Source of the DNA: Phycisphaerales bacterium
GTDB lineage: Bacteria; Planctomycetota; Phycisphaerae; Sedimentisphaerales; Anaerobacaceae
Direction of reading: 5' to 3'
Assembly (NCBI GenBank): GCA_003141275.1
Contig: PLLM01000059.1
Location: 1-64,000, forward strand
Length of the DNA: 64,000 bases
Numbering within the stretch: the stretch's first letter is position 1; each line of letters begins with the position of its first letter. The notes under the pieces are model-generated. The model did no database searches, was not told the DNA's origin, and saw only the letters and a list, made by a program, of their open reading frames with translations. The position numbers and the translations under genes are program-made. Below are positions 978 to 51,665 of this stretch, piece by piece.

Positions 978-1051
978 CGCGGGGTAGAGCAGTCTGGTAG
1001 CTCGTCGGGCCCATAACCCGGAGGTCGGAGGTTCGAATCCTCCCCCCGCTA
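978..1051 (+). tRNA. Initiator tRNA-fMet (CAT)
   Basis: CGCGGGG acceptor, GAGC/GCTC D stem, CCCATAA anticodon loop flanked by three G-C pairs, GGAGG-TTCGAAT-CCTCC T arm; unpaired 1:72 position typical of initiator tRNA; CCA not encoded. Confidence 0.93.
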
Positions 1052-1148: not shown

Positions 1149-1613
1149 TTAAAATTCCCAGCCTTCGTAGCGATTTGGTATAGCGCTGTTTAATGGCGGC
1201 ACTTCACCGAATTTCTTAAAATACGCCTTTATCAATTGTTCCTCTTTGCTCTTGCTTTCGGCAACGCCATAACATTTACAAAACGAATATTGAAAATTTG
1301 CATCTTTGAACCTATTTGAGAAGTTAGTATGGTCCCTCAAATAGTAAACAAGGTTCATTTCCGAATGGCCGCTCGCTCTGTTTATGGCAGATACGAATTG
1401 TGCCCTTCTTTGTTTCATGTTGCTGGTATGTCCGATACACATTATGCCTTCTTTATCCGCCGTCAGTAATCTTGCCAGTGTACATGCTTTGCCGTTGGCA
1501 TTGGTTAATCTCACTTTATAGACTGCCGGCCCTTGATAATTACATTTATCATTGATATTAAGCCAATCCGTCCATTTATTTGTCATGGTTTTACTCTTTA
1601 TTTTATTGGCCAC
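1149..1613 (-). CDS. GIY-YIG nuclease-like protein (degenerate motifs)
   Basis: GPAVYKVRL ... GIMCIGHTSNMKQRRAQF ... EEQLIKAYFKKFGEVPPLNSAIPNRY; alternative ATG start at 1586. Confidence 0.5.
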   Translation of the reverse strand: MANKIKSKTMTNKWTDWLNINDKCNYQGPAVYKVRLTNANGKACTLARLLTADKEGIMCIGHTSNMKQRRAQFVSAINRASGHSEMNLVYYLRDHTNFSNRFKDANFQYSFCKCYGVAESKSKEEQLIKAYFKKFGEVPPLNSAIPNRYEGWEF

Positions 1614-1623
1614 TTAACTTGAT

Positions 1624-1866
1624 TTAGCTTGTTAAAAGCTTCGGGCCTTTATTGCCGCCTTGGCATTTGGGGTTGGGGCATTTCCTTTGAAAGATGTCAG
1701 AGCCATTCGAGCCGTATATGCAGCCGCATTTTGTGCAGTTCATTACATAGACATATTGCTCGTTGTCAGTCCCGGCTTGCTTAGGTTCAACTCGGCCAAG
1801 ATTCTTTTGGCTGTTCTCGTTAATGAACCCTGGTATAGTCGTGCTCTTATTTGCCCTTTTCTTCAT
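1624..1866 (-). CDS. Small zinc-ribbon protein
   Basis: CTKCGCIYGSNGSDIFQRKCPNPKC double CxxC. Confidence 0.5.
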   Translation of the reverse strand: MKKRANKSTTIPGFINENSQKNLGRVEPKQAGTDNEQYVYVMNCTKCGCIYGSNGSDIFQRKCPNPKCQGGNKGPKLLTS

Positions 1867-1923
1867 TTTGCGTTGTCTTTTTTTATTTTATTGGCCAGGC
1901 GCCGAACGGAATCACTTCTACAC

Positions 1924-2352
1924 TTAACAATCCTTTTGGCACTTTTCTTGTTTCGGCCACCATAATTCAAAACGCTCTTTTAATACCACATCATTTCTCT
2001 TGGGATCAGTCAGTCGCTTTTCAGGAACAGCACAAAATAATGCCTTCCAGAATTCCAGGGCAGCTATACCACGAGGACTTTCTCTAATAAATTTAAGCCT
2101 TGTTTTAAACCAATTACTTAAAAGGGCATAAGCATACCCGGGGAGTGGCATAGAAAGATCATGGAACCACTTTTCAAATGCTTCGGATGCTCTCTTATTA
2201 AAATGTATGACTTTCCGCCAATTAGCCGAACTGGTTTCTACCTTTTTGAGTAATCGCTTTAGATGGATTTTATCAACAGCTTCAGGATTTTCGAGTTGCA
2301 GGTTAAAAGTATTATCTACTCGTTGCCAGATGAGTTTCTTACGGTTTACCAT
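1924..2352 (-). CDS. Hypothetical protein
   Basis: 142-aa ORF in a co-directional gene series; preceded by the shared TGGCCAATAAAATA motif. Confidence 0.5.
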   Translation of the reverse strand: MVNRKKLIWQRVDNTFNLQLENPEAVDKIHLKRLLKKVETSSANWRKVIHFNKRASEAFEKWFHDLSMPLPGYAYALLSNWFKTRLKFIRESPRGIAALEFWKALFCAVPEKRLTDPKRNDVVLKERFELWWPKQEKCQKDC

Positions 2353-2366
2353 TTTGTCTTCCTATT

Positions 2367-2828
2367 TTATTGGCCAGACGCTATGGACGTCATAGGCTCT
2401 TTGAAATGAGCCAGGACCTTCTCCATTACATCACGTCTGTGAACAGGATGTGGTGCCGGTACTCCTGAGGCTAACTGTCCCATTGCCGCACCAGCCTTAT
2501 TTAGAATATACGTAGCATCCTTTATCCGCTGGAGTTCGCCAATAAGTTCTACACGTACCTGTGCAGGAAACTTTCCATTCCAAGCTTTTGGTTCTATGTC
2601 AAACTGGGCTTTGGAACAAGCTCTAAAAATCCCCATCAGCTCATCTTTGTCAAAATTAAAAAGTAACCCTATATCTCCTGGTTTTATCTCATTCAAATCT
2701 TGAAGTTTCTTGGTCTTGTCACCGAACAAATTACGCCTGAGACACTCTTCTTCGGTGTTGGCATCGCATAACATTATAAAGCCTCTATCAAACTGAAGCA
2801 TTAAATACTCCGTTGTTAGTAATTCCAC
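2367..2828 (-). CDS. DCD-like (Development and Cell Death, PUA-like fold) domain protein
   Basis: GFIMLCDANTEEECLRRNLFGDKTKKLQDLNEIKPGDIGLLFNFDKDELMGIFRA...KFPAQVRVE matches the DCD pattern. Confidence 0.7.
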   Translation of the reverse strand: MELLTTEYLMLQFDRGFIMLCDANTEEECLRRNLFGDKTKKLQDLNEIKPGDIGLLFNFDKDELMGIFRACSKAQFDIEPKAWNGKFPAQVRVELIGELQRIKDATYILNKAGAAMGQLASGVPAPHPVHRRDVMEKVLAHFKEPMTSIASGQ

Positions 2829-3532
2829 TCCGTATGACTAATTGGAAATCGGTTTAACTCATCTTTGTAAGCACGCCACTGGGGCATGAATTTGTCCATA
2901 TAGGTCTTAAACCGTTCATTGTGACGATGTTCCAAGAGGTGCACCATCTCGTGAATCAGAATATATTCCAAACAATGGACCGGCTTTTTGGCCAGTTCCA
3001 GATTGAGCCAAACCCTCCTGGCTTTAATGTTACAGGTGCCCCAGCGTGTCCGCATTTTCTTTATGCCAAACTGTTCCACGCTGACCTGCATTTTCTTTTC
3101 CCACTCGGCTATCATTTCCGGTAGTATCTCTTTGAGCTTGCAGCGATACCATTCTTCTAAAATCACCTGCCGTTTTTTGGTCGGTATGTCGGGACGAATA
3201 TGCAGCTCAATCTTTTCATGCTTGAGAATTACGTTGGCCGGGGCATTTTCTTCGATCACATCCAACAGATACCGTTTGCCCAGATAAAAATGACTCTCCC
3301 GTGTAATATAATCCCTTGGGGTTTCCCGCTGCTGACCGCGGAGTTTGTTCTGCTGTTTTTTGATCCAGCTTATTTTAGAGATTGCAAAAACCCGGATGGT
3401 ATCCAAGCCCATCCGCAACGGCGCAGATATGCGAACTCTGCCGGTCGGTGGGTAGATGCTGAGATAGACATTTTTGATATTTTTCAGCACCACATCCACC
3501 GCGATGTCGCCAAGTTTAACCTGCTTGACCAT
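2816..3532 (-). CDS. YgjP-like (DUF45/SprT-like) metallopeptidase
   Basis: MRTRWGTCNIKARRVWLNLELAKKPVHCLEYILIHEMVHLLEHRHNERF: HExxH with downstream H. Confidence 0.9.
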   Translation of the reverse strand: MVKQVKLGDIAVDVVLKNIKNVYLSIYPPTGRVRISAPLRMGLDTIRVFAISKISWIKKQQNKLRGQQRETPRDYITRESHFYLGKRYLLDVIEENAPANVILKHEKIELHIRPDIPTKKRQVILEEWYRCKLKEILPEMIAEWEKKMQVSVEQFGIKKMRTRWGTCNIKARRVWLNLELAKKPVHCLEYILIHEMVHLLEHRHNERFKTYMDKFMPQWRAYKDELNRFPISHTEWNY

Positions 3533-6500
3533 TAGTATTCTCTCTGCGCTTTGATGATTAGGAAAATGCGCTCCACCTCGGCTTCATTCCGCAATACACC
3601 ATACATCGCAGCCTTTATAACTTGCTCGCGGGCACGAACACCGCGCCAGTCATCAGGCCGCACTTGTCTGACTGTTTCGTCAATCTTCAGCGCCAGCTCT
3701 TCATTCTGACCCAGGTTGTTGTATATGGCGCGTTTGCCGGGTGTATTCAGCTTTTCCGGTGTTTCTTCCGCATAACCTGCTCCCACTCTTTTCGCCAGTT
3801 CGGCGATGCGCTTCAGGTATTCCTCATACTCGATGGCCTTCGCCTTTCGGGCGGCAATAATCTCGTCCAGCAACGCAGACATCTTCTCGTAGTAGGCCGG
3901 GTCGTTCAGGTGTTCCTTGATAATCTTGCTGCGAACGTTGTTCTCAATGGTTTCAGCCACCGCATTCCTGTCTCCCTTCAGTCCGCCAAGCTGGGTCGTG
4001 ATAGCATTGGCGATGCCGGTCTTCACAATCAAATCCAGCAGGCTCATGTTGTCGAAGGGCGAAATCTTCCGCGGCTCATCGGCTTCAATGTAGGTGTCGA
4101 TGAGATGCCGCATGTCTGCTTCGTAAGCTTTGAGGTCGAGACTTTCGCCGCTGGCCTTGCGAATGATCTCCCGGACATTCAGGTAGTAGTCAAGTTGTTG
4201 TTTGATCCGTTTGATGTCGTCACTGCTATATCCTGCGCGTTCCAGTTCGTCTGCAATATTGGCGTAGGCTCGCACCAGCGCCACAGTCGCCTTGTAAAGC
4301 GCGGCCCGTTGCGGTTCCCGTTCCGTCAGGTCCGTCGCAATCTCCGTGTTGCCGCAGAAGTAATGGATGTGCTCCAACTCGCCCTTAGGCGGCTCGACCG
4401 CCTCGCATACCAGGACAATAACTTCCACCGCGTTGTCGAGACGTTCCTTACCTTTTTTGAGGCGATCCTGTAGCAGCACCTCCGGATTGACCCCGCCTGC
4501 GCTGTGATCCAGCTCGGAGGTATAGACCTCGATGGCATCATGAACCTTATTGAATAGGTCCTTGTAGTCCACGATATAGCCGAAGTCCTTATCCTCGCCG
4601 TCCAGCCGATTCGTTCGGCAGATGGCCTGGAAGAGGCCGTGGTCCCGCATTGACTTATCGATATAGATATAGGTGCATGGTGGCGCGTCGAATCCGGTGA
4701 GGAGCTTGTCCACCACAACGAGCAGCTTCATGTTCGCCGGCTCTTTTTTGAACAGATTCTTTGCCTGTTTCTCGTAGGTTTCAGTCCTCGTCATGTTTGG
4801 CTTAGCTTCGATGTCTTTCAGCAGTTCGTCATATGTGTTGAAAATGAACTGCTTGTCGGTCTCGGTGTTTGCGCCGATCTCTTCCATGGTCACATCCTGC
4901 GCCTGGGGGCCATATGAAGTTATCACTGCACACCTACCCTTGAACGGGGTCTTTTGAAAAAAGGTGAAATACTTGCACGCCTCGTAGATGCTTGATGCTA
5001 CCAGAATGGCATTGCCACGTTCGCTGGAAAGGCGAGGTTTGACGCTGAAGTCGAAGACAATGTCGTTCACCACCCGCTCCACGCGAGAGCGGGAGCTGAG
5101 CACGCTCTGCATCGTGCCCCATTGTCTCTTCAGTTCTTCCTTCTGCCAGTCGTTCAATCCTTTGGTCTTGGCCTCGAACCATGCATCGATTTTATCCTCA
5201 GATCCGAGACGCTGGTCAATATCACGCGCCTCATAGACCAGGTCGAGTATCACCTCATCTTCAACGCCCTCGCTGAATTTGTAGGTGTGGATGTAACTGC
5301 CGAAGACTTCAAGGCTTGTCTTCTTGTCTGTCATCAGCAGCGGCGTTCCGGTAAAACCGATGAATACGGCGTTCTTCATGATAGCCTTCATCGTTTTATG
5401 AAGCTTGCCGCTTTCGGTTCTGTGGCATTCGTCCACGAATACAAAAATTTCACCGACGGTCTGGCAAGGTTGCTCTTCCAGTTCCTTGATGAACACGTCG
5501 AAGTCGTTTACATTCTTCCTGCCGAATTTGTGGATGAGTGAACAGAGCAGTCGCGGCTTCGCTTGACCAAGTTGGCTCATCAGGTCGCGTCCGCTGCTGG
5601 TTCGTATGATGGGTTCGCCCGCCTCAGTAAAAACACGCTCAATCTGTTCATCCAGCTCATCGCGGTCGGTGATGACGGCCACGCGGGCATTGGGATTGTT
5701 CTCCAGAATCCATTTGGCCAGCAACACCATCACAATGCTCTTGCCGCTGCCCTGGGTGTGCCAGATGATGCCGCCCTTGCGCTCATACACATGCCGCTGG
5801 GCGGCCTTGACACCGAAATACTGATGCACACGCGGCAGTTTCTTTACACCGCCGTCAAAGAGCACAAAGTCGTGCATCAGTTCGATGAGTCTATCCTGAT
5901 TGCACATCTTCAGCAAATACTTGTCCAGTTTGAAGCAGGTGTCGTCTTTCTCGTCTTCCTTCCACTTCATAAAATACTTTTCTGGTGTTCCGATTGCTCC
6001 GTATTGCATACCCTCGGAATCATTGCCCGCGAAGATGAACTGCACTGTGCTGAAGAACCATGCGTTGAACTCCGTCTGCTGGTTGGAAAGGTTCTGGCGA
6101 ATGCCGTCGCCGATGGTGACACGGCTGTTTTTAAGTTCCAGCACGCCGACGGCGATGCCGTTCACATATAGCACAATGTCGGGCCGTCGCTCGTGGTTGC
6201 CGAGCAGTGTGACCTCCTCGGCGATAGCGAAGTCGTTTTTCTCCGGCTCATTCCAGTTGATGAGGTGAACGGTTTCTGTGACCTTGCCCGCCTCAATCTT
6301 AACCGGCACGCCGTAGCGCAGCAGTTTGTAAACGGCCTGATTGTTGCCGTAGAGACCGCGGTTGTAGTTGTCTGCCTCAGTGTGCAGCTTGTGCAGGGCA
6401 ACGCTGATTTGCGCCGGGGTGTAGCCGCACTTCGACAGATAAACTGTGAGGAGTCCTTCCTCGATATTGCTGTTGCCCTCGCGGTCAGTCCAGTCGCCGA

Positions 6501-6582
6501 GGTAGCGGTAGCGAAGCTCATCGCAGAACAGGGCGATAACGCGGTCCTGTGTAATGCGTTCGGGTTTGCCTATGTCGCTCAT
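3532..6582 (-). CDS. hsdR: Type I restriction enzyme R subunit (HsdR)
   Basis: N-terminal nuclease PDIVLYVNGIAVGVLELKN, Walker A TQGSGKS, VDECHRTESGKL, FIGFTGTPL, ICRTNR. Confidence 0.97.
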   Translation of the reverse strand: MSDIGKPERITQDRVIALFCDELRYRYLGDWTDREGNSNIEEGLLTVYLSKCGYTPAQISVALHKLHTEADNYNRGLYGNNQAVYKLLRYGVPVKIEAGKVTETVHLINWNEPEKNDFAIAEEVTLLGNHERRPDIVLYVNGIAVGVLELKNSRVTIGDGIRQNLSNQQTEFNAWFFSTVQFIFAGNDSEGMQYGAIGTPEKYFMKWKEDEKDDTCFKLDKYLLKMCNQDRLIELMHDFVLFDGGVKKLPRVHQYFGVKAAQRHVYERKGGIIWHTQGSGKSIVMVLLAKWILENNPNARVAVITDRDELDEQIERVFTEAGEPIIRTSSGRDLMSQLGQAKPRLLCSLIHKFGRKNVNDFDVFIKELEEQPCQTVGEIFVFVDECHRTESGKLHKTMKAIMKNAVFIGFTGTPLLMTDKKTSLEVFGSYIHTYKFSEGVEDEVILDLVYEARDIDQRLGSEDKIDAWFEAKTKGLNDWQKEELKRQWGTMQSVLSSRSRVERVVNDIVFDFSVKPRLSSERGNAILVASSIYEACKYFTFFQKTPFKGRCAVITSYGPQAQDVTMEEIGANTETDKQFIFNTYDELLKDIEAKPNMTRTETYEKQAKNLFKKEPANMKLLVVVDKLLTGFDAPPCTYIYIDKSMRDHGLFQAICRTNRLDGEDKDFGYIVDYKDLFNKVHDAIEVYTSELDHSAGGVNPEVLLQDRLKKGKERLDNAVEVIVLVCEAVEPPKGELEHIHYFCGNTEIATDLTEREPQRAALYKATVALVRAYANIADELERAGYSSDDIKRIKQQLDYYLNVREIIRKASGESLDLKAYEADMRHLIDTYIEADEPRKISPFDNMSLLDLIVKTGIANAITTQLGGLKGDRNAVAETIENNVRSKIIKEHLNDPAYYEKMSALLDEIIAARKAKAIEYEEYLKRIAELAKRVGAGYAEETPEKLNTPGKRAIYNNLGQNEELALKIDETVRQVRPDDWRGVRAREQVIKAAMYGVLRNEAEVERIFLIIKAQREY

Positions 6583-6583
6583 G

Positions 6584-7507
6584 TCATCCCTTCAGCAGCT
6601 TGAAGATGATTTGATAGCGGTAGAACTGGATATTCGACACCATTGTCAAAGCCCTTCGGATTCTTGGGTCATCTTCCAACGCGACGATGATGCCATGAAC
6701 AGTCTGGTTATTCTCGGCCAGCATCTCCTGCACAAAACTCATGTATCGAAGAGTTTGTCCCACCACGGTATCACTGGCACGTCCCTTTTTCAATTCGACG
6801 ACAAGCAGCTTCTTCTTGTCTTTGCTAACGGCGAGTATATCGAGCGGGCCGGTATCGGTTTGGTATTGCTGCCCCTTTTCGCCGTCTTCCTCGTAAATAT
6901 CATATTCCTTGCCGAGTTCGGTATGTGCCCAGTTTTTCACAAGGAAATCCTCAAGATGTTCCTCCAAGGCAAAAGCCGAAGGGTCTTCCACCGTTTTGTC
7001 TGTGGAAATAAGTTTTGGAGCGGAAATACCACCGATTAGTTTTTCAATTTCTTCGCTGTGGGGTGTAATGTTACTGACCGTGCCGATTGATCCTGTGGAG
7101 TTTTGCAATGCTTCACTCATGCCAGATCGGTCAATGGTCACATTCAACCAACTTACAGGTCGTCGATGATAAAGAATTTTGCCAGGCTCGTAAGTATAAT
7201 CACCACTAACTTCGCCTACACGATACTGGCCTGAGCCATTGGGGCATAGCAATATATCTCCCTTCTTAATTCCTTTGGACACCGTCCACAATGCTCCGCA
7301 CGCCAGCCCTGCGCCAATTCTCGTTTTGTGGGGGCGAGCTGCCAGATAGATGGGAATAAACTCCTTGTTGAAGGCACGCCACTCCTCCGGCAACTTATGC
7401 GTAAGGTCTTGGTTGATACCGAAATCGACGCCGATGAAGTTCCCCGCGAAGCATTCTTCTGCATGAACACTCTTCTGCCCCAGCATAACGCGGTAGTAGC
7501 TTTTCAT
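6584..7507 (-). CDS. NucS/DUF91-type PD-(D/E)xK endonuclease-like protein
   Basis: C-terminal FALEEHLEDFLVKNW...GPLDILAVSKDKKKLLVVELKKGRASDTVVGQTLRYM; sits between hsdS and hsdR. Confidence 0.7.
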   Translation of the reverse strand: MKSYYRVMLGQKSVHAEECFAGNFIGVDFGINQDLTHKLPEEWRAFNKEFIPIYLAARPHKTRIGAGLACGALWTVSKGIKKGDILLCPNGSGQYRVGEVSGDYTYEPGKILYHRRPVSWLNVTIDRSGMSEALQNSTGSIGTVSNITPHSEEIEKLIGGISAPKLISTDKTVEDPSAFALEEHLEDFLVKNWAHTELGKEYDIYEEDGEKGQQYQTDTGPLDILAVSKDKKKLLVVELKKGRASDTVVGQTLRYMSFVQEMLAENNQTVHGIIVALEDDPRIRRALTMVSNIQFYRYQIIFKLLKG

Positions 7508-8628
7508 ACGAGTCTTATCCTCCCTGTTAAAAGTTCCTGCATCATACCCTGTTTGAGCATTTTATATTTATCCAGCTTTTGCTCCAATCGCTCAATCTCC
7601 AAATCCATGTCGCTCAGGATGGCGGCGATGGCGGTCTGTTCGGCGAGAGAAGGAACCTTAAAAGTTCGTTCTTTGAGAAACTTGAAGTGTCGGTTGTATC
7701 CAGTGGTGGGAATCCCCGAATGCTGTAGCTGAAAAGCGTGGAACCGAGTATTTTGGCCGGACTTTGCCGCCAAGATTTGAGTGCCATCAGCACCAACAAC
7801 AAAGTCAAAATCTACAAACTTGACGATACAAGTGTGATCCCCAAATACGATCACGCCTCCTTGAGGACATTGAAAACGCCTATCATGCCTATCGGAATAT
7901 CCAATCACAGATTCCTTCCCCTGATCAACAACCGGGTAGCTGCCTATTGGCTGATAATCGATTGTCTGTATTTGATGTTCCTTAGCATTCAACCGCAATA
8001 AGACATCGCCAAAAGGCTGATATTCCCACTCCCCGCTAAACCCAGGTAAGCGTTTTTTGCCGGTGAGGAGTTGCTGCATTGCTCCTTGCTTAATATTTCG
8101 CTTTTTGGCAATGAGTTTTTCTAAGGCAGTAATCAGTTCATCCGCATCGCGCAACGCCCCTGCGATGGCTTCTTGTTCGGCTTTGGTGGGCGGGATGGGG
8201 ATCAGCATTCTTGCAATCATTTCCCGGCGAACGGAATCAACGGACGACTTTGCAGTCATCTGCATGATCCGGTTGTAGAAGTGGCTGCTGAAGTAGAGGT
8301 AGAAGAAGTATCCGTTTATGCGATCAGTAAACTCAGAGATACGGTAAACGCGCTGGTGGGCGTCAAACTTGTCATTGATGTAGTGGAACACTTTTCCCGT
8401 GCCAACTCCATCGCCGGCTGTTAAGACCGCCTCTCCGTCAAAGGAATAGCTGTTGATGTGTTCAACATTCTGCGAGCGGACAAAGAACGGATACTGACCG
8501 TCATCGACACGATCCTGCGTGTTTTTTCCGCCTGTGGTGATGTGTGCGAGATTCTCGATGCAATCGACCTCCCAATCCTCCGGGATCACCCCCACCTCGG
8601 TCTGCTTGTAGCATTTCTTTACTTCCAT
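7504..8628 (-). CDS. hsdS: Type I restriction specificity subunit (HsdS)
   Basis: Two target-recognition-domain halves with IPPTKAEQEAIAGAL...KRNIKQGAMQQLLTGKKRLPGF and VPSLAEQTAIAAILSDMDLEIERLEQKLDKYKMLKQGMMQELLTGRIRL. Confidence 0.97.
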   Translation of the reverse strand: MEVKKCYKQTEVGVIPEDWEVDCIENLAHITTGGKNTQDRVDDGQYPFFVRSQNVEHINSYSFDGEAVLTAGDGVGTGKVFHYINDKFDAHQRVYRISEFTDRINGYFFYLYFSSHFYNRIMQMTAKSSVDSVRREMIARMLIPIPPTKAEQEAIAGALRDADELITALEKLIAKKRNIKQGAMQQLLTGKKRLPGFSGEWEYQPFGDVLLRLNAKEHQIQTIDYQPIGSYPVVDQGKESVIGYSDRHDRRFQCPQGGVIVFGDHTCIVKFVDFDFVVGADGTQILAAKSGQNTRFHAFQLQHSGIPTTGYNRHFKFLKERTFKVPSLAEQTAIAAILSDMDLEIERLEQKLDKYKMLKQGMMQELLTGRIRLV

Positions 8629-11018
8629 GCGAACCCCATTTTTTTCAAATGAGCATTTACTTTGCCAGTCAATTCCTCGACCTTTTCAGTAAAATTCGGC
8701 ATGGGAATTTCGTAGCGTTTGGCCAGTTCCTTCACTCGCTGCGTAAGGGCTTGGCTGATTCGATCCATCTCGCCGTGGATAATGGCATCTAGCGCGGCAA
8801 GCCATTTGTCGTCCACCACCAGCGTTTTCACTTCCGCTTCGGTTAGCTTGGGGTATTTTGCATAGGCCAGCGCGTCGAGTTCTGTTTCAGCATCTTTAAT
8901 CCGTTTCTTAAGGTCGGCTTCCTGCTCGGAGAGTTTCAGCCATTCGTTGAGCACGGCGGCCTCGTCCTTGGCCTCCTTGTCGCCTTTAATCTCCTTGAGC
9001 CGGGCGGTGACGTTGGCCTTGTTGACCTTGTCGAGTTCGGAGAACGCGCCTTCATCACCTCCGTTTTCTTCTTCCAGCTCAGTAATCTGGGCTACGACGC
9101 TTTCCATCTCGGCGGTGAGCTTGTCGATGGCCTGCTGCTCTTTGGCAAAATAATGGGCAACAATGAGGGCCTTTGGGATGAGGTCGCAGCTCCAGCCCTT
9201 GTCTTTCTCCTTGCCCTTTTTATCCTTCTCGATGATGCGGTAGGTTTCGGCTTTCCAGCCATCGGCGGCGATGATGTAGCAGTCATCCTGCATCGTCTCG
9301 GCCCAGTAGTCCATGAGATGCTGGTAGATGTCGTATTTGTCGATGAGCGATTTACCGGTGTAGTAGGCCAGAAGATTTTCGGAGAGTTCCACGATAACCT
9401 GCTTCGGGTGGCAGCCGCTCTTAAGGGCCTTCAGATTGGCGGCGTTTTTCTTCCGCCAGGAGGTAAAGTGGGCATTCATCCTCTCTATGAACGCGGCAAA
9501 CTCAGGGTGTTCGAAAATCGTGGGCTTTATCGCTGACTTGTCCACGGCGAGGTCGAGGTAGCCGGAGCGCTTGGCCTTGAACAAGACCTTGCGTAACTGC
9601 GGACAAACGTCCCAGTAGCGCTGGAGGGCATCGACATCAGCGGTGGGAATACCGCCCTTGAGATGTCCCTCGATGTCCTGGAGGTCCTCAGGCGTCTGGC
9701 TGTCGATATATCGCGGGAGGTTGAGGTTGAACTCATTTTTCTCGACCTCCTCGACGCTGACCATGCGGGAGTATTTGGGGATTTCGAGCCGCTTGTTGAA
9801 AGTATCGACTATCTTGTGGATGTCCTGGGCACGGAGGCGGTTTTTGGGGCCGTCTTTCATAAAGCCCTGGCTGGCGTCAATCATGAAGATGCCCTTGCGG
9901 GCGTGAGCGTCCTGCTTATCCACGACTACGATACAGGCGGGGATGCCGGTGCCGTAGAAGAGGTTGGCGGGCAGGCCGATGATGCCCTTGATGTAGCCCT
10001 TGCGGATGAGATTGCGGCGGATGTCGGCCTCGGCATTGCCGCGAAAGAGGACACCATGCGGCAGAATGCACGCGCCTTTGCCGGTGCTCTTGAGCGAGCG
10101 GACGATATGCAGCAGATAGGCGTAATCGCCCTGTTTGCCGGGGGGCGTGCCAAAGGGCTGAAATCGCTCGTAGGGGTCATTGAGCGGTTCAAGGCCGGTG
10201 CTCCAGCGTTTGTCGGAAAATGGCGGATTTGCGACGACATAGTCGAAGGTTTTGAGCGTGCCGCCGTCCTTAAACTTGGGATCGGTCAGCGTGTTGCCTT
10301 GCACAATCATCGCCGTTGGGTTGTTGTGCAGGATCATGTTCATACGCGCCAGGCCGCTGGTGGCGGCGTCCTTTTCCTGCCCGTAGAGGGTGACCTTGGC
10401 GCTGGCTTCATCACCCACCTTCAGCAGCAGCGAGCCGGAGCCGCAGGTAGGGTCATAAACGGTGGTGGCGTTGGTGGTCTTTGCGTCGCGAATGCCAATA
10501 ATCTTCGCCATTATGCGGCTGACCTCAGCGGGGGTATAGAACTGGCCCTTGCTCTTGCCGCTCTCCGTGGCGAAGTGCCGCATCAGGTATTCGTAGGCGT
10601 CACCCAGGATGTCGTCACCCTCGGCGCGGTTCTTGGAAAAATCGAGTGCTTTGTTCTCGAAGATGGCGATGAGGTTGGTAAGCCGGTCCACCATTTCCTT
10701 GCCGCTGCCGAGCTTGGCGGCGTCGTTGAAGTCCGGCAGGTCGGACAGCTTATTGGCATTGGCCAGCGGCGCGATAATCTTCTTGTTGATCTGGTCGCCG
10801 ATGTCTGGCTTGCCCTTGAGCGCGACCATGTCCTTGAAGCTGGCGCCCGCTGGGATAGTGATCGGCGCATACTGCACGCCGGCGTATTTGTCGCTGACGT
10901 ATTTGATGAAGAGCAGGACGAGAACGTAGTCCTTGTATTGGCTGGCATCCATGCCACCGCGAAGTTCATCGCAGCTTGCCCATAAGGAGCTATACAACTC
11001 AGACTTCTTTATTGCCAT
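8619..11018 (-). CDS. hsdM: Type I restriction methylase subunit (HsdM)
   Basis: GKSKGQFYTPAEVSRIMAKI, DPTCGSGSLLLK, VVANPPFSDK. Confidence 0.97.
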   Translation of the reverse strand: MAIKKSELYSSLWASCDELRGGMDASQYKDYVLVLLFIKYVSDKYAGVQYAPITIPAGASFKDMVALKGKPDIGDQINKKIIAPLANANKLSDLPDFNDAAKLGSGKEMVDRLTNLIAIFENKALDFSKNRAEGDDILGDAYEYLMRHFATESGKSKGQFYTPAEVSRIMAKIIGIRDAKTTNATTVYDPTCGSGSLLLKVGDEASAKVTLYGQEKDAATSGLARMNMILHNNPTAMIVQGNTLTDPKFKDGGTLKTFDYVVANPPFSDKRWSTGLEPLNDPYERFQPFGTPPGKQGDYAYLLHIVRSLKSTGKGACILPHGVLFRGNAEADIRRNLIRKGYIKGIIGLPANLFYGTGIPACIVVVDKQDAHARKGIFMIDASQGFMKDGPKNRLRAQDIHKIVDTFNKRLEIPKYSRMVSVEEVEKNEFNLNLPRYIDSQTPEDLQDIEGHLKGGIPTADVDALQRYWDVCPQLRKVLFKAKRSGYLDLAVDKSAIKPTIFEHPEFAAFIERMNAHFTSWRKKNAANLKALKSGCHPKQVIVELSENLLAYYTGKSLIDKYDIYQHLMDYWAETMQDDCYIIAADGWKAETYRIIEKDKKGKEKDKGWSCDLIPKALIVAHYFAKEQQAIDKLTAEMESVVAQITELEEENGGDEGAFSELDKVNKANVTARLKEIKGDKEAKDEAAVLNEWLKLSEQEADLKKRIKDAETELDALAYAKYPKLTEAEVKTLVVDDKWLAALDAIIHGEMDRISQALTQRVKELAKRYEIPMPNFTEKVEELTGKVNAHLKKMGFAWK

Positions 11019-22169: not shown

Positions 22170-24002
22170 CTAGATAGAAATGCTCTTTTCCTGAACTGTG
22201 TTAAGACCACCTACCGGAACCATCCGAATTGCCAAAATGGCTTTCTTGGCAGGTTTATTGATATGAATCTTTTCGATGCATCGGCGCAGGGCAGTGAGTT
22301 TCTCTTCAGGCAGGCCATTACGAAGGGTAAATTCCAAACAAGCTAAGAACCTCATTCCTTCTGTGACTATCGTATCAATCTCGGCCTGCGACAGCGACAG
22401 CCGCTCCAGTTCTTCCAGCCGGACCTCGATTTGCTGCTTTTTGGTGGTCAGGTCGTTTAGCCGTTTGTCTACATGCTCACGATTGGTTTCTGTAAGATTG
22501 TCCAACAGGTTATTTATTATTTTGGTTATATTTTCCAATTCAGCCTGCGCCCTTTGACGTGCTGAAGTGATGTCTTCTTTTTCTGCTCCCGTCTGTGACT
22601 TAACGGCCTCAGCGAGCTTCTGGCGACCATCTTTTTCAAGATACGGCTTATAAAAGTCCAGCACCATTTCGATGACCTTTGATTCAATCGCCTCTTTTGG
22701 AATGGCATTCATTTGGCAGATGGTTGTTCCTTTGGTTATGTAGCCGCCACAACCATAGTAGTAGTTTTTAATTTTTGTACCATCCAGCCGTTTTTTGCCT
22801 TTCTCGCGGGTTACTCCCTGGTAACGGTTGCCGCACAGGGAACATCTTAAGAGTCCCGAAAGTATGAACCTGCTCCGCTGGCCGTTCCATGTCCTGCCGT
22901 GGTTGTTTTGTTTTTGCTCAATTGACTTTGGATGATTTTCGAGCCGCTGCTTGGCTTGTTCAAATAAACGCCTGTTTATCAAGGCGGGGTGGGCATCTCG
23001 AATGACAATCCAGTCGCTTTGGTCATTGGGAACGAGCCTTGCCCCGTGTACATTTTCGCGGTCTACGGCCCGGCCCTGGCTAATCCTATGGAAGCGTGCA
23101 TCGGTCCGCCGGTTCCAGACCATATCCCCGGCGTATATTGGATTGACCAGTATGGCCCTTATGGTTGTATCGGTCCATTTACCCTTGTAGATGTGTGCCC
23201 ATTGTGGTCCTCTCGCCGTAGGGATACCTTCCTGATTTAGGGTAGCGGCAAGGGATTTGTAACCTTTGCCTTGCTCTGCGTACATCTGGAAAATTTGCCG
23301 GGCTGTCTTTACTCGCTGGTTATCGCTGAATACAAGTTTTGCCTGGTCACGTTTGGATATATTGAGTGATTCACCTTTTGTTAGTGTGCGGATTGCATTA
23401 CCTTTTTCGTCGAAAAGCTGTTTTGTGCCATCGGGCATAAAGCGTAGTATAAATAAAAACTTGCCTTCGGCGTTTTCGTAACGGAGGTCATAGCCGTAGG
23501 GGGGCGTGCCTCCCATCCACCAGCCGCCTTCGACCTTTGAAAGTAGCCCTCTTATCGTTACCTTCGACAGGTCTTTGGATTCCTGCCTTGCCTGCCATTG
23601 TTTGACCGGTCGAAGTAAGTCATCGGTAACATCTCCGTTAAAATTCTCGGAGACGTAAATAACTTCGACTCCGTTGGTCCTTAAGATATGACGATAGTAG
23701 CCTGCCTCATCGTTATCAATTCGACCAAAACGTTTCACATCGTAGACTACTATCTTGTCGAATTGACTGTTTGTCTTCTGGGCATCTGCCATCATCTCTT
23801 GAAAGGCACGCCTGCCAATGGTGGATGTGCCGCTTATGGCATCATCTACATAGAACTTTGAAAGGCGCAGGTCGTGCTCGGCGACGTAGTTTTCAATGGC
23901 CTTCTTCTGGTCGGGGATAGACTGCTCCTGGCGGTCCGTAGAGCGCCTGACGTAGCCGACTGCCCGGTTTGTTGGGCGATGTTCGGTGTTGGCCCTTATC
24001 AT
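22170..24002 (-). CDS. Large serine recombinase
   Basis: VGYVRRSTDRQEQSIPDQKKAIENYV resolvase catalytic N-terminus, zinc-ribbon LRCSLCGNRYQGVTREKG, coiled coil. Confidence 0.93.
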   Translation of the reverse strand: MIRANTEHRPTNRAVGYVRRSTDRQEQSIPDQKKAIENYVAEHDLRLSKFYVDDAISGTSTIGRRAFQEMMADAQKTNSQFDKIVVYDVKRFGRIDNDEAGYYRHILRTNGVEVIYVSENFNGDVTDDLLRPVKQWQARQESKDLSKVTIRGLLSKVEGGWWMGGTPPYGYDLRYENAEGKFLFILRFMPDGTKQLFDEKGNAIRTLTKGESLNISKRDQAKLVFSDNQRVKTARQIFQMYAEQGKGYKSLAATLNQEGIPTARGPQWAHIYKGKWTDTTIRAILVNPIYAGDMVWNRRTDARFHRISQGRAVDRENVHGARLVPNDQSDWIVIRDAHPALINRRLFEQAKQRLENHPKSIEQKQNNHGRTWNGQRSRFILSGLLRCSLCGNRYQGVTREKGKKRLDGTKIKNYYYGCGGYITKGTTICQMNAIPKEAIESKVIEMVLDFYKPYLEKDGRQKLAEAVKSQTGAEKEDITSARQRAQAELENITKIINNLLDNLTETNREHVDKRLNDLTTKKQQIEVRLEELERLSLSQAEIDTIVTEGMRFLACLEFTLRNGLPEEKLTALRRCIEKIHINKPAKKAILAIRMVPVGGLNTVQEKSISI

Positions 24003-44391: not shown

Positions 44392-44583
44392 GTGGTTTTA
44401 GGAGGGCTGGAAGTGAGAAAAAGTTTAGTTGTTCTGTTTGCCGTTGCGGGAGTTGGTTTCTGTCCTACTTCAATCGCATTAGCCGATGTTAGTGGAACTA
44501 TCACTATCAATACAATCTGGGATCTTGCCGGTTCCCCTTATATTTTGGTTGGCGATCTAACTGTTAGATGGAGGAGCCTATGA
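44392..44583 (+). pseudogene. Truncated N-terminus of a secreted repeat protein
   Basis: Signal peptide RKSLVVLFAVAGVGFCPTSIALA then DVSGTITINTIWDLAGSPYILVGDLTV, which normally continues into a long beta-helix protein, stops abruptly. Confidence 0.5.
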
Positions 44584-47500
44584 AATCCTGTTCGATGTCC
44601 ACTTTTTCAATACGTGATACAAAATGCTTCTTACTCAGCACAGTCGTGTTACTTGTTGCCGGAACTTTTGCACATGGTTCTCAGAGAATCGTGCTTTCCA
44701 TTCGAGACCAAGATGGGAATCCATTTGAGATTAAAAGTTATGATTACGATGAAGACTTGCCTGCACCCGCACACATAGGTCAAATGCAAATTTATATGCT
44801 TGGTGAAAGCCAGTTGAATGTCACAAATCCTCCTTGGGACCGCGTTACCGGGTGGTACGGAGAGCAACCGCAATGGACCGAACAGAATGTGCTTGTACAA
44901 GTTTATAGAATGGTGGGGGATACTTTTGATTCGAATGCTCCCATTGATATAAAAACTTGGCAACGTGGCCAGACTACGATGGCCATCGATGGGCTTAGCC
45001 CAGGCACATACATGATTGTAGCATCGTTTGCAATGTCACTCAAGCGCAGCGAATATACGTCTTTCTTCGAAGAAGATCTTGACAGTTGGTCGCCAGGTTG
45101 TGACATGGTCGACTCATATGACCCAATCCATTTGTTTGAGGGCGGGACCGTACAGGATGCTGGCAACGCATCTTCACACGCGGAAATGTATGGGTTCGAT
45201 GGTGGTTTTAAACCGCGGTGTGGAAAACCTTTCGTCTTTCAGCCTGACAAACATGGAACAGACATGTGGGGCGGCAATTTCAGATTGGTCCGTGCTGGAT
45301 TTGATGGGCATCAGTATCCTAACGCTGTTCCTGGTAAATGGGATTTACAGCCCAACTTGCGTATCACAAAGCTGTACAACTACGCGATTAGTGTGGCTAC
45401 AATTACGCATGTGGACATCGGAGAGACCGACAACTGCCACATCATTCTCTCAAACAATCCAGACTCCCTACGCCTTGGAGCTGCACAAGTCGCTAAGAAC
45501 CACATTTACACTTACGACACTGATAATACGCTGGTAGATGTTAACGCTGTATATAATGGACTATTTCTTATCCGGACGATAGCAAGTGCTACGGCCGGTT
45601 CCGGAGTAAACACAGTGGTCGATAACCTAGGAACCAACATGAAGAGTGAACTTGCTGGATTCGGAGCTAGCATAGCCGCAGGTGCTGCATGGAATATTGT
45701 AATGTGTTCCCAAGGGGGGCAGATTGACTGGCTGAAGGTCGGAGGGAAAGAAATCGGCACCCTATTGTCTAAGGAGATTTCTACTTTGTTGGGATTGGGG
45801 TCTACTGGCGGTTTTATTCTAGGAGCTATGGTGTCCTTCACGGTATCAGAGGTATTGGCAGCAATTGAAGCAGACCAACGGTGGCAACGGCTTGCAGATA
45901 TCGTCGTTCCTTCAGTCATTGACGACATTTACGTAGAGGTGAAGCCTGTTGCGTCGACATACGGCATAAAACCTGAGGTCACGGTTCGCAACATGGGAGA
46001 AGCAATCAAGTCCCTTCGAATCGGAAGGGTTTCTTCTACAGTGGTGCCATTTGGGAAATGGTTTCAGGTGCCTCCTAGTTTAGATCAATTGCACTACAGT
46101 TTTCCTGGTGGGTATGATCTGCCGAGCGACGGGCTGGTCGACCTGCTCTTGCTAAAATACGAATCCTCGATGCTCGACTCGGGTCGGGTTGCCTTGGTTT
46201 TCAAAATCGGTCTGAGTGGCGATGATACTATCGAGGTTGCAGTACCACTCTGCAATTTAGCACCTGTACCTAAGAGCCCTGCGGCCAGTACGATCTGTCT
46301 AACAACTCGCCCATGGTTCACGTGGAATGACAGCATGGCCCCAGAGAATCTCTTAGGGTTCACTTGTTACGAGGTCGATGTCTGTCCCGCCAGCGAATCA
46401 TTTGACCCGACGACAAATCGCGTTGTTGGTGCTGTCAGCCCACCTCTGACTACTTGGCAAGTGGGCTGCGATCTTGCTCCTGGAGATTACTTCTGGCAAG
46501 TCAGACGTGTTGGCTCCGGGTGGGTGTCCCCGACCAGTAGGGTTCAGAGATTCAGCGTTGTTTCCCCCGCTGCTTTTCAAGTAGACACGTTCTATCCAAT
46601 CACTTCTTCAACAAATCGTGCGTATAGGGACGAGTGCATTGTAATTGATTTCAACAAGAAGATAGACGTTAATACCTTGACAGGTACCATATCGTTAGTA
46701 GGTTCGTCATCAGGCACCTTGCATCCCTTTCTAACTGTAGGAGATAGTTCGGCAGGGGGAAGTTCTCGGTTGCGTATAAGCACCGTACCTGTCACATACT
46801 ACGAGTCCAATGAAACAATAACAGTCACAATAGCTCCTACTTTGAAAAATGTGAACGGTACTATTCTGGATGGAGATAATGACGGAAATCCTGGGGGCAC
46901 ATTCAGCCGGTCATTCTATGTGGGTACCACCCTGGCGGGTCCTCCTGCACCCACTAACCTTCATGCGACTGTTGCATCAGGAAGTGTAGGCTTATATATT
47001 GATCTGCCGAGCAATGCTTCGCTGGGATCTTGCCGGGTTTATTATGCATCTGGTTCCAATCCAGGAATATACACGGGTATTGGAGCGAATGAAGGGACAT
47101 CTCCACGAGAGATATTGTTGAATAACACCGGAGTTTCCCAAGTACTGGTACCGTTCACCGGTTTGGCTCCCGGTGAATACCATTTCGCTGCCACAAGCGT
47201 TGACCTTTCGGGCCGAGAAAGTGTCTTCTCTCAGGATCTTGAGGTACATCTAATGGCTACAGGTATCCTGAGTGCAAATGCCGGGCCAGACAGAACGATT
47301 GCGTGTAGGCAAGAAGCGACATTAAGTGGGCAGGCATCGGGAGGAACCCCCCCGTATTTATATCGCTGGGATTTTGATGGAGATGGAATAGATGATTGGG
47401 GGCCGTACTCTTCAGGTAATGCTAGTCATACATATACAGTCAGCCAGACTTTCAATGCACGATTAACTGTATCAGATTCTGATTCTCCCCCGGTAACAGC

Positions 47501-50500
47501 AACTGATACAGTTATAATATCGGTTGAAGGCTGCGATCAAGAAGGTCCAATTATCTTAAACGTTCGACATGAACCGGTGAATCCTACCACCAACGATTTT
47601 GTTTACGTCTACGCCGATATTTCGGATATATCAGGTGTTGGAGGTGCCATAACTCATTGGTGGAAACAAGGAACCGTTGTTCCTACAGAAATGGGCTGGA
47701 TACAGATGAGTCGGATAGGTACCAGCAATACGTGGTACTCAGGTAAACCTATTCCGGTATGGCCTGCGGGTACAGTAATCAATTATGAAATCAGTGCTTA
47801 TGATGGAAATCGCTACGTGTCGAACTCAGCGGTCTATTCCTACACGGTCGGCGCGGTGGTGGACAGTCAGGGGCCGGTGCTCTACGGCATGTATCCAGCG
47901 CCCGGATCGATCATCTACTCTGCACGGCCGACAATTGAATGCCGCATGGTGGACAACGGCGGTTCAGGCGATGTGGACGAAAGTCGGATTATTATCAAGG
48001 TTGATGGCGTTAATGTCAGCGCAAGCGCGCACAGAAACGATGATGAGGTAACGTACAAGCCGGCAACGAATCTTACCGATGGGTTGCATACAGTGTGGGT
48101 CAGTATACCGGATATGTCGCACAATGTAAGCACGTACCAGTGGCAGTTCACGGTAGATACGACGCCACAGACAGGTAACCTGATTGAGCATTTCGATATC
48201 ATCGTGCCTACGTATGGGCATATTGTCGACTCTTTTGATATCTGGCAAGATTATGTAGCATGGTTAGATGAGACAGAGCATCGAGTTCGACTTTTCAATT
48301 TGAAAACGCAGCAAGAGATATGGCAATCACCCACAAGTCAAGTTCCAAGCGATAATGACTCTATACACATGAATGGTGGGAAAATTATTTATATCGACAC
48401 AGAGCCCACGCCAGATAAATTCTATGTGTATGATATTAGCAGCAGAACCCTCATGAATACTGTTTGGACCTATGATAACACTCCAATGAATCCTGATATT
48501 TCCGGGAAATATATAACCTTTGAAAGCTTGGATGCTGCACATCAGGATGACTATGTATGGGTCAAGGACATTGCTACAGGCCAAATTTATCAAGGTCCAC
48601 AGAATGGTATGTATCCCAGGATTGAAGGAACAAAAGTGCTCTATCAGACATCTCCGATGTCGGGAGAAGATGTCCGTCTTTGGGATTTTATCTCTGGTAG
48701 TGACACTGTAATCTGTAATCAAAGCGGAGACCAGGAGGGGCCAGCAATAGCGAATGGTCTTTGCGTCTTCGAGAATCAGAATACTAGTCCAGACCATTTT
48801 GCATTGACCACACTTTCAGGTTCAGGATATCAACAGCTCTCGGTTGGCAGGTCTGTCGGTTATCCTGACATCGATGACCGTTATGCCGTGTGGGTTGAGC
48901 TTGGGACAACACCAACTGGTACATATGATAATGTTTGGATAAAAGATTATATCAGCGGACAGAAGTATCAGTTGACGGCCGGCATTGCCGATGTTGATGG
49001 CAGCCCGAAAGTTTCCGGCAACAGGGTTGCATATCGTGACAAAACCGGCATGAACCGATTGCTGGTTGCGGAGTTGGCAACGGAAGCTGTATGGCCTCAG
49101 GCAAAAGTGTTTGCTACAACCGATATGACTCATTTCGATGGTCTTGCGGTTGATGAGGCTGGCAACGTGTATATATCTGGTAGAAGAAACTCGGACGACA
49201 AGGTTGTCAAATACGACCGCAATGGGAATCTCCAATTCGACTTCGGCACAGAAAGCAAGATAGATAATCCACGTAACTTGGATGCCAAGAACGGAACCGT
49301 GTATGTGTGCAGTGCGGGCCTAAAGAGCCTCATCAAGTATTCCGATTTAGGTGTGTATTCCGGAACTGGTCCAGTGCTTTCTATGACTCCAATAGACGCA
49401 GCGATCAGAGGTGATGGTCATGTGTTTGCTCTCACCGGTGGCTATGTCCGGCACTACGATGCCAACATGGTATTCGTTGAGGACGTGACAAAATCTATGT
49501 TAGGGTTGGGCACACTCAATTCCTGTGCCACTACAGAAGACAACAAACTTGTAGTAGCAGACACAAGCGATCGCATTAGTGTATGGGATTTAAATAGTGA
49601 ACACTTAATAGGTTCAGTTTCAAATGCTGGACGTTATGTTGCAATTTGGAAAGACCGGTTTGTGTATGTTACCGACCAAGGCTGTTGCATAAGTATTCTC
49701 AATATCGGTAGTGGTACACCAACTCTTTTGGTTGATGGTCACCATAATATAGGGTGGGATTCTGGAGTATTAAGAGATATCACTGGCCTTAATTATAAAT
49801 ATTTTGAAGACCCCAAATACATCGATATTGGACCTTTGGGAGAAGTTTATTTTTACAACAACTATACAGGTTATGAGGGTGTGGTGAAACTGCCTCCGTT
49901 CTTCTATTCCGATACAAGCGCACCCACGGTAACGGTGCTATCCCCAGCGAATGGCACGAGAACAGCATCTGGGGTTTTGCGATTTCAGATAACCGATAAT
50001 ATGGTCGGTGTTGATGAAGAGTACACGCGGGTTTATCTCGACGATCAGGACATAAGTGGTATGTTTGTGCAGCAAGAAGGGATATACAACGCCGAATTGG
50101 TTGCAGGTTCACATTCCCTGATGAATGGGAATCATGTTTTGAAGATCCGTGCCGCTGACTATGCTGGAAATACACAAGTCACAAATATTGCGTTTACCAT
50201 TGATGCCAAGCCCCCATCTCCGATTACTTTTCTCACGGCGCTCGATACGGGGACAGGTGGCAGCATTCAGCTCGATTGGACATCATATGTTGAGGCAAAC
50301 GAGACCGATCTTGCCGGTTACTATGTCTTTGCCAGTCCATCGCCAATCTCAGTCACAAATGGTTTACAACCAGTCAATTCCGTATTGATCCCATTGGGGA
50401 CAAAGACATACCAGGTTACAGGACTTAACAATAATATAGATTATTATTTCGCCGTCGCAGCTGTTGATAGCTTGGGGAATATAGCGGAGATTGTTGTGAA

Positions 50501-51287
50501 CACTGGCCCAGTAACTCCTCATGCCCAACCTTTGCCAGACCTGTATGTGTCGCCTTCCGATGTTGTTTTCGAGCCAAGTCCGCTGACGCAAGGCAATCGT
50601 AGTGGCATCGTTATCACCATACATAACTGCGGGCTGGCGGCAGCGAATAGCTTTGGGTTGGCTGTTTACTTGGGCGACCCAAATCAAGGGGGAATTCGAA
50701 TTGATGATGGAACGATATTACTGAATGCCACGGTGGGGGGAATCGCAACGGCGAGCATTCCCTATATACCTGTCAATATAGGGTGGGAACAGTTGTTTGT
50801 AATTCTTGACCCATCTAACGCGATTCAGGAGCAGAATAAAGCCAACAACAGCATTGTTATTGGTGGCTATGTCTCGGCGCCCATTGCACCGGCGGGTGAC
50901 TTCAATGGCAATAATTGGGAGGACCTCGCGGATTTTGCCATTTTTGCACGGGCTTGGATGAGCCAGCCGGGCCAGGCGAACTGGAATCCAGCCTGCGATA
51001 TCTCAAGTCCGAAAGATGATATCATTGATTGGTCGGACTTTGCTGTTTTTGTCGAATACTGGTTGGCGGGCATTGAGTATATACCACCAGCGATTTACGC
51101 GGGCGATTTCGATGGCAATGGTCAGGAAGATTTAATGGATTTTGCCATTCTTGCATCAGCATGGATGAGCCAGCCGGGAGAGATAAATTGGAACCAATCC
51201 TGCGACATTTCAGACCCGAAGGATAATATTATTGATTGGACAGACTTGGCTGTCTTTGTTACGGACTGGTTGGTGGGAGCTCAATAA
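44568..51287 (+). CDS. Giant secreted multidomain protein (PKD, beta-propeller-like, FN3/CARDB-like, two C-terminal dockerin-like repeats)
   Basis: PKD YLYRWDFDGDGIDDWGPYSSGNASHTYTVSQTFNARLTVSDS; CARDB-like LPDLYVSPSDVVFEPSPL; GDFNGNNWEDLADFAIFARAWMSQPGQANWNPACDIS...IDWSDFAVFVEYWL twice; likely start 44580. Confidence 0.88.
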   Translation: MEEPMKSCSMSTFSIRDTKCFLLSTVVLLVAGTFAHGSQRIVLSIRDQDGNPFEIKSYDYDEDLPAPAHIGQMQIYMLGESQLNVTNPPWDRVTGWYGEQPQWTEQNVLVQVYRMVGDTFDSNAPIDIKTWQRGQTTMAIDGLSPGTYMIVASFAMSLKRSEYTSFFEEDLDSWSPGCDMVDSYDPIHLFEGGTVQDAGNASSHAEMYGFDGGFKPRCGKPFVFQPDKHGTDMWGGNFRLVRAGFDGHQYPNAVPGKWDLQPNLRITKLYNYAISVATITHVDIGETDNCHIILSNNPDSLRLGAAQVAKNHIYTYDTDNTLVDVNAVYNGLFLIRTIASATAGSGVNTVVDNLGTNMKSELAGFGASIAAGAAWNIVMCSQGGQIDWLKVGGKEIGTLLSKEISTLLGLGSTGGFILGAMVSFTVSEVLAAIEADQRWQRLADIVVPSVIDDIYVEVKPVASTYGIKPEVTVRNMGEAIKSLRIGRVSSTVVPFGKWFQVPPSLDQLHYSFPGGYDLPSDGLVDLLLLKYESSMLDSGRVALVFKIGLSGDDTIEVAVPLCNLAPVPKSPAASTICLTTRPWFTWNDSMAPENLLGFTCYEVDVCPASESFDPTTNRVVGAVSPPLTTWQVGCDLAPGDYFWQVRRVGSGWVSPTSRVQRFSVVSPAAFQVDTFYPITSSTNRAYRDECIVIDFNKKIDVNTLTGTISLVGSSSGTLHPFLTVGDSSAGGSSRLRISTVPVTYYESNETITVTIAPTLKNVNGTILDGDNDGNPGGTFSRSFYVGTTLAGPPAPTNLHATVASGSVGLYIDLPSNASLGSCRVYYASGSNPGIYTGIGANEGTSPREILLNNTGVSQVLVPFTGLAPGEYHFAATSVDLSGRESVFSQDLEVHLMATGILSANAGPDRTIACRQEATLSGQASGGTPPYLYRWDFDGDGIDDWGPYSSGNASHTYTVSQTFNARLTVSDSDSPPVTATDTVIISVEGCDQEGPIILNVRHEPVNPTTNDFVYVYADISDISGVGGAITHWWKQGTVVPTEMGWIQMSRIGTSNTWYSGKPIPVWPAGTVINYEISAYDGNRYVSNSAVYSYTVGAVVDSQGPVLYGMYPAPGSIIYSARPTIECRMVDNGGSGDVDESRIIIKVDGVNVSASAHRNDDEVTYKPATNLTDGLHTVWVSIPDMSHNVSTYQWQFTVDTTPQTGNLIEHFDIIVPTYGHIVDSFDIWQDYVAWLDETEHRVRLFNLKTQQEIWQSPTSQVPSDNDSIHMNGGKIIYIDTEPTPDKFYVYDISSRTLMNTVWTYDNTPMNPDISGKYITFESLDAAHQDDYVWVKDIATGQIYQGPQNGMYPRIEGTKVLYQTSPMSGEDVRLWDFISGSDTVICNQSGDQEGPAIANGLCVFENQNTSPDHFALTTLSGSGYQQLSVGRSVGYPDIDDRYAVWVELGTTPTGTYDNVWIKDYISGQKYQLTAGIADVDGSPKVSGNRVAYRDKTGMNRLLVAELATEAVWPQAKVFATTDMTHFDGLAVDEAGNVYISGRRNSDDKVVKYDRNGNLQFDFGTESKIDNPRNLDAKNGTVYVCSAGLKSLIKYSDLGVYSGTGPVLSMTPIDAAIRGDGHVFALTGGYVRHYDANMVFVEDVTKSMLGLGTLNSCATTEDNKLVVADTSDRISVWDLNSEHLIGSVSNAGRYVAIWKDRFVYVTDQGCCISILNIGSGTPTLLVDGHHNIGWDSGVLRDITGLNYKYFEDPKYIDIGPLGEVYFYNNYTGYEGVVKLPPFFYSDTSAPTVTVLSPANGTRTASGVLRFQITDNMVGVDEEYTRVYLDDQDISGMFVQQEGIYNAELVAGSHSLMNGNHVLKIRAADYAGNTQVTNIAFTIDAKPPSPITFLTALDTGTGGSIQLDWTSYVEANETDLAGYYVFASPSPISVTNGLQPVNSVLIPLGTKTYQVTGLNNNIDYYFAVAAVDSLGNIAEIVVNTGPVTPHAQPLPDLYVSPSDVVFEPSPLTQGNRSGIVITIHNCGLAAANSFGLAVYLGDPNQGGIRIDDGTILLNATVGGIATASIPYIPVNIGWEQLFVILDPSNAIQEQNKANNSIVIGGYVSAPIAPAGDFNGNNWEDLADFAIFARAWMSQPGQANWNPACDISSPKDDIIDWSDFAVFVEYWLAGIEYIPPAIYAGDFDGNGQEDLMDFAILASAWMSQPGEINWNQSCDISDPKDNIIDWTDLAVFVTDWLVGAQ

Positions 51288-51574: not shown

Positions 51575-51665
51575 CCCCCGCTATTGGTTTACAGAGATAA
51601 CTTCCTGGCAAGCAGGGAGTTATCTCTTTCTTTTTGCTCTCAAATTAACCCGCTATTAACCTTCG
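51575..51665 (+). repeat. Right copy of direct repeat flanking the island (attR-like; tRNA-fMet 3' tip plus terminator)
   Basis: CCCCCGCTATTGGTTTACAGAGATAACTTCCTGG...GGGAGTTATCT aligns gaplessly with 1043-1133. Confidence 0.75.

Follow-up and report, generated by a model that had tools for sequence, protein, structure and literature searches.

The described systems that come closest to the locus considered here are the gene-cassette arrays of integrons, the integrative elements that enter the 3' ends of genes and restore their reading frame, and the defence islands found behind restriction-modification operons. How such islands gain and swap single genes when no mobile element is apparent has yet to be explained. 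Here we analyse a stretch of 64,000 nucleotides (the window) from a Phycisphaerales bacterium, and consider it probable that the 3' tails of type ISP restriction-modification genes join arrays of single genes, often with roles in defence, which recombine at these tails. No description of such a tail-joint system was found in the open-access literature, an absence that is itself weak evidence.

On the minus strand, the window carries three exact copies of a 14-nt string, TGGCCAATAAAATA, at 1599-1612, 1884-1897 and 2363-2376 (a span of 778 bp), placed 12, 17 and 10 nt before the ATG codons at 1586, 1866 and 2352, respectively. This agrees with the preliminary description, which had reported three identical minus-strand copies lying 10-17 bp before an ATG. 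With up to two mismatches allowed, the window holds 7 matches against 0.82 expected, and none of 100 shuffles reaches 7. Beyond these three, the 3.05 Mb genome has no further exact copy, and it has none of the reversed control pattern; thus, the genome-wide count that had been proposed as a check finds it not frequent but rare, and always at these joints. The close plus-strand variant that had also been reported at 11218 did not hold up as a fourth copy: its 12-mer, TGGCCAATAAAA, is found 6 times genome-wide versus 5 for the control, a background-level count, and a model of the extended element described below misses it, marking it as a chance match.

Features of the window array and its surroundings
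Feature	Position	Strand	Remarks
Type I restriction-modification operon (hsdM, hsdS, NucS-like gene, hsdR)	3532..11018	-	Upstream of the array
YgjP-like metallopeptidase	2816..3532	-	Array head; PF01863 E 2e-59
Dev_Cell_Death (DCD) domain gene	2367..2801	-	Before the first tail; PF10539 E 2.1e-21
Tail scar 1, ..TATGACGTCCATAGCGTC-TGGCCAATAAAATA	2363..2394	-	Readable as YDVHSVWPIK-stop
Cassette gene, 142 aa	1924..2352	-	Few relatives; those in G083 and G193 are 45-46% identical
Tail scar 2, GCGCC-TGGCCAATAAAATA	1884..1902	-	Short left arm; exact 14-mer; R1 model E 2.4e-4
Cassette gene, 80 aa	1624..1866	-	Zinc-ribbon-like (CxxC..CxxxxC by eye, without Pfam support)
Tail scar 3	1599..1612	-	Last codons WPIK and stop only; exact 14-mer
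Cassette gene, 145 aa	1149..1586	-	GIY-YIG-like by eye, without Pfam match; name unconfirmed
tRNA-Met	978..1051	+	Adjoins the array; synteny with G001 and G002 ends at the tRNA 3' end

In the window, three tail joints thus appear to link the DCD gene and three small genes in a row behind an hsdMSR-YgjP operon and beside tRNA-Met. The first scar consists of a right arm (2363-2376) and a left arm (about 2377-2394) and scores 43.7 bits with a position weight matrix, 25.9 of them from the left arm against a left-arm null maximum of about 14; its R1 model E-value is 3.6e-8. It overlaps coding sequence, as the stop codon of the DCD gene is part of it (..S-G-Q-stop = TCT GGC CAA TAA). The third scar retains the right arm only; we accept it as a probable member because it is one of only three copies in the genome and stands in the same row, and taken alone it is the weakest and least certain of the three. 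The 142-aa gene has no Pfam or PADLOC match. Several of these genes recur beside tails elsewhere: homologues of the 80-aa gene lie behind a tail in G037 (L045) and G001 (L055), and its start also does so in G051 (L043 6093); a DCD homologue directly precedes a tail in G051 (L043 4644-5058), as the DCD gene does in the window genome (G000); and in contig L075 a tail directly follows a YgjP homologue.

As a separate observation, the 3' end of the tRNA-Met and its terminator hairpin (1043-1132) recur about 50.5 kb downstream (51575-51662). Because of this repeat, and because synteny with both G001 and G002 breaks off at the same 3' end, the segment from 1.05 to 51.6 kb looks like a tRNA-bounded island. 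A large serine recombinase encoded within it at 22170-24002 (PF07508, E 1.6e-25) may be its integrase, and an open frame of 2239 aa (44568-51287) stops just short of the second tRNA-tail repeat.

In relatives, the flanks of the 14-mer clusters display a longer common sequence with the consensus GACGAAACAATCGACGCCCACGGCGGC-TGGCCAATAAAATA-R, whose right end is fixed and whose left end varies in length; the shared homology stops after TAR, the stop codon of the tail. The exact 14-mer is present in 24 of 297 related genomes, in clusters on single contigs and strands, and by our own count it has 41 matches (forward and reverse) in these genomes versus 16 in the control, so that some of the exact matches outside the order are due to chance. 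Of 19 stretches with the longer pattern, 16 come from Planctomycetota metagenome-assembled genomes (MAGs), and with a weight matrix its copies reach 72 bits, whereas the top score in 1.25 Mb of reversed sequence is 0.1. A sequence-only model of the tail finds matches in 40 of 198 relatives, often several per contig, and in the window recovers the 2363 (E 3.6e-8) and 1884 (E 2.4e-4) copies. The remnant surviving at the joints comprises the last 15-60 nt (about 5-20 codons) between unrelated genes, with left ends graded from 0 to 54+ nt. Most of these genomes are fragmented MAGs, in which assemblies break at many tail loci and many tails lie near contig ends.

Read in frame, TGGCCAATAAAATA encodes W-P-I-K-stop, and the extended element in its TGG frame reads ..KIMKQIDETIDAHGG-WPIK-stop, while intact parent genes in related Planctomycetota have the C-terminus ..KIMKQIDETIEAHGGWPIK followed by a stop. 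Long open frames in L146 (G068), L155 (G100) and L162 (G016) terminate naturally in this tail, and a shorter related end is retained in L164 (G049). The L146 and L155 proteins (1160 and 1166 aa, both ending in HGGWPIK-stop) match the Type_ISP_C domain (PF18135) with E-values of 8.6e-84 and 1.7e-87; intact tail-bearing genes overall fall in the 1e-84 to 1e-88 range for this domain, with a lowest value of 2e-88, and additionally match N6_Mtase and Eco57I. The parent proteins match the PADLOC type IIG model (E 5e-223) and are homologous to the solved enzymes LlaBIII and LlaGI. Type ISP proteins of cyanobacterial plasmids align up to residues 134-135 of 135 and end in IPSWPIE-stop or IPGFPIQ-stop. 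Because these proteins end in related residues, the tail belongs to the gene family, and we take the WPI-type C-terminus to be ancestral to it rather than acquired. The alignments hence identify the motif as the 3' end of a type ISP (type IIG) restriction-modification gene, and because the tail is the natural end of such genes, cyanobacterial relatives included, they indicate that the direction is from gene to scar. The window array itself has no type ISP gene; in the same genome the closest type ISP-like protein, encoded on another contig, is only remotely similar (32% identity across part of the query).

Certain other arrangements of the type ISP 3' end were seen alongside. In two genomes, the head of the array is a direct fusion of the first ~55 residues of a type IIG-like N-terminus to the type ISP tail (..FIDPFFEELGWDV..NAHGGWPIK-stop; L083 at about 404-610 and L151 at 9859-10047). 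Genes of toxin-antitoxin type lie directly behind a type ISP 3' end in Synechocystis pSYLA (L197, 1872-2575; nucleotidyltransferase/DUF86) and Nostoc pANSO36D (L198, 1875-2600; DUF2281/VapC), as does a helicase gene in Calothrix (L196). The type ISP 3' end may be an insertion point outside Planctomycetota as well.

The central evidence on the nature of the tails comes from 95 of them, for which, after removal of exact duplicates, flanks of 570 nt on the upstream and 600 nt on the downstream side were compared separately. Fourteen tail pairs share the upstream side only, the homology in most cases reaching to 2 nt or less from the tail and the downstream sequence being unrelated; another 10 share the downstream side only, with homology from near the tail and unrelated sequence upstream. 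No pair shares both sides. Intact type ISP genes account for 5 of the 14 upstream pairs, and the independent groups number about eight upstream (the type ISP group included) and five downstream. For example, an AhpC-like gene with 81-95% identity follows different upstream genes in G025, G027 and G051, and its first 40 nt are also found in G068. Conversely, in G149 one upstream gene has two different downstream partners (L073/L091), and within one genus a single upstream stretch likewise has two (L066/L072). Because pairs share the upstream or the downstream side and never both, each tail is a recombination joint rather than a conserved intergenic element, and these comparisons show that genes on either side reassort exactly at the tail.

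Within an array the units share a strand and are flanked by tails; each has a single ORF, and most measure 0.3-2.5 kb. Spacing is commonly 4-60 nt from tail to start (ranging down to about 1 nt) and 17-66 nt between a stop and the following TGG; some spacings are longer, and two units are larger. In the longest array (G051:C52), six or seven tails are packed into about 7 kb. The cargo is rich in restriction, toxin-antitoxin and other defence genes, including DarT, DarG, GmrSD/HNH, Mrr, REase-ARP, GIY-YIG with RAMA, Swt1-like HEPN, nucleotidyltransferase, GajB-like UvrD helicase and exonucleases; non-defence genes, such as AhpC-like and ferredoxin-like ones, are present too. Some arrays begin behind restriction-modification genes, namely hsdMSR-YgjP in the window, YgjP in L075, an intact type ISP gene in G068 and a type II methylase in G064. 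As judged from sequence, the variable left truncation, the same-strand one-ORF arrays, the reassortment at the tail and the identity of the parent are all established.

We posit that the mobile cassette would be a unit of 'gene + tail', which a crossover between tails would allow to enter or leave. The first entry would take place at the 3' end of an intact type ISP gene with its reading frame kept, and later ones into existing tails, whereby the array would grow behind the restriction-modification operon. The crossovers most likely occur through short homology and the general recombination of the host, with a site-specific recombinase nearly as likely. The L073/L091 and L066/L072 pairs, each with an identical truncated left junction and different downstream genes, suggest crossovers at different points within the tail; because of these and the graded left ends, exchange driven by homology fits. 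The window copies have only 14-15 identical bp in common, which is short for RecA. Against the best explanation stand the lack of any recombinase found, this short identity, the graded left ends, the breaks in MAG assemblies at many tail loci and the lack of tail homogenisation: tail similarity is 0.659 within and 0.644 between genomes (p 0.15), which does not support frequent local homogenisation. Likewise, as similarity within a genome is not above that between genomes, local duplication was rejected as the origin of the tails.

The alternative closest to this explanation retains all of it except the motor, and proposes a dedicated site-specific recombinase, integron-like and unrelated to IntI, for which the tail is the site. 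The integron-like anatomy favours such an enzyme, as do certain signals in the DNA: the third codon position is C in 57 of 62 cases in scars versus 4 of 8 in intact genes (Fisher p 0.007; a small sample of copies that are not independent), and tail conservation dips at -2, -5 and -6 only. Together these hint at constraint or selection on the scars at the DNA level. Against it, the left boundary is not fixed, and no single tyrosine or serine recombinase was found to track with the tails in these incomplete MAGs. Of 297 genomes, 22 have an IntI (TIGR02249) match above the cut-off, yet the tail-rich genomes are nearly all without one, and none of the fetched IntI loci has a tail; moreover, eight tails folded as DNA gave z from +0.65 to -1.98 and no common structure, unlike attC. 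A canonical integron was rejected on these two grounds. Large serine recombinases are missing from the tail genomes G064, G149, G037, G050 and G072, and were discarded as the motor given their absence from many tail-rich genomes. Short (~200 aa) tyrosine recombinases are patchy, being found in some tail genomes only; one is on G051:C52, the contig of the longest array, but the other fetched loci around them have no tails, and they too were set aside. On balance, we regard a dedicated recombinase as possible and slightly less favoured than short homology.

The main rival to the explanation as such holds that the tails are passive relics with no role in movement, each gene's own upstream type ISP gene having been deleted down to its last codons. 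This would account for left ends that are graded rather than fixed, for the position of the tails just before starts, like the end of an operon neighbour, and for the longer 5'-truncated relics of 32-45 codons from another type ISP subclade in G145 (L199), G069 (L200) and G156 (L201), which end in GGGGWPIR-stop, GYGGWPMK-stop and GHGGWPIK-stop, respectively; because of these, 3' ends of the family are taken to be left behind repeatedly. Nevertheless, up to seven tails in a 7-kb stretch would mean that a 3.5-kb gene had been inserted and deleted just as often, short tails are far commoner than longer fragments, and the two cases of one truncated left junction with different downstream genes need a crossover inside the tail. 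Hence, we consider passive relics improbable.

The preliminary description had offered two readings of the string, as a cassette-joining scar or as a translational or regulatory operator shared by the three small genes. The former is borne out, in that the string marks the joints of independently reassorting genes in many Planctomycetota. The latter could draw on the position 10-17 nt before starts and on the AT-rich right half of the motif; yet the genome has no further copy, the string forms the end of a known coding sequence, the copies are unrelated to one another past its stop codon, and the distance from tail to start is ~1-60 nt in many arrays and longer in some, with no consistent structure. 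This leaves an operator very unlikely. A diversity-generating retroelement, or retrocopies truncated at the 5' end but fixed at the 3' end, would fit the fixed 3' and variable 5' ends and the NNC-like variation beside the motif, but is scarcely credible, as RVT_1 is absent in 7 of 9 tail genomes tested (G000, G001, G064, G050, G072, G077 and G149). Two further candidates were also rejected: a functional C-terminal peptide, since the frames differ (the DCD gene uses another) and formerly invariant Gly codons vary; and a viral origin, with one IMG/VR contig only and no viral relative of the parent's C-terminal region.

In its broadest form, which we put forward tentatively and at rather less than even odds, our proposal is that Planctomycetota, chiefly Sedimentisphaerales/Phycisphaerae, possess a gene-cassette system that is not related to integrons and uses the type ISP 3' end as its exchange site, one-gene defence cassettes being gained, shuffled and lost behind restriction-modification operons by a new recombinase or none. 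Should a recombinase be found, integrons would be joined by a second cassette system; otherwise, cassettes would be shuffled by short homology only. In either case, the tails provide a recognisable joint sequence that shows the limits of each unit and by which the gain, loss and exchange of single defence genes could be traced from sequence alone, and the uncharacterised genes between them, such as those for the 142-aa and 80-aa proteins of the window, become candidates for defence tests.

Like integron arrays (IntI/attC, integrase-less clusters included), the tail arrays consist of one-gene units of ~0.3-2.5 kb in one orientation with a short common site at each joint, which reassort freely and carry defence and toxin-antitoxin cargo; unlike them, they are without IntI, and their joint has no stable attC-like fold, comes from where the coding sequence of a restriction-modification gene ends and has a variable left end. 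As in the frame-restoring integrative elements of gene 3' ends, the common block runs as far as the target's stop codon, repeats stand at both ends of units and an array may have an intact type ISP gene at its head (G068), whereas the tail units are far smaller, show no integrase and form arrays that persist without the target gene. In location and cargo they resemble the defence islands behind restriction-modification operons, with the difference that their genes are separated by copies of the 3' tail of one gene. The parent of that tail belongs to the type ISP/type IIG enzymes (LlaBIII, LlaGI; PF18135), of which the joints keep only the last 5-20 codons.
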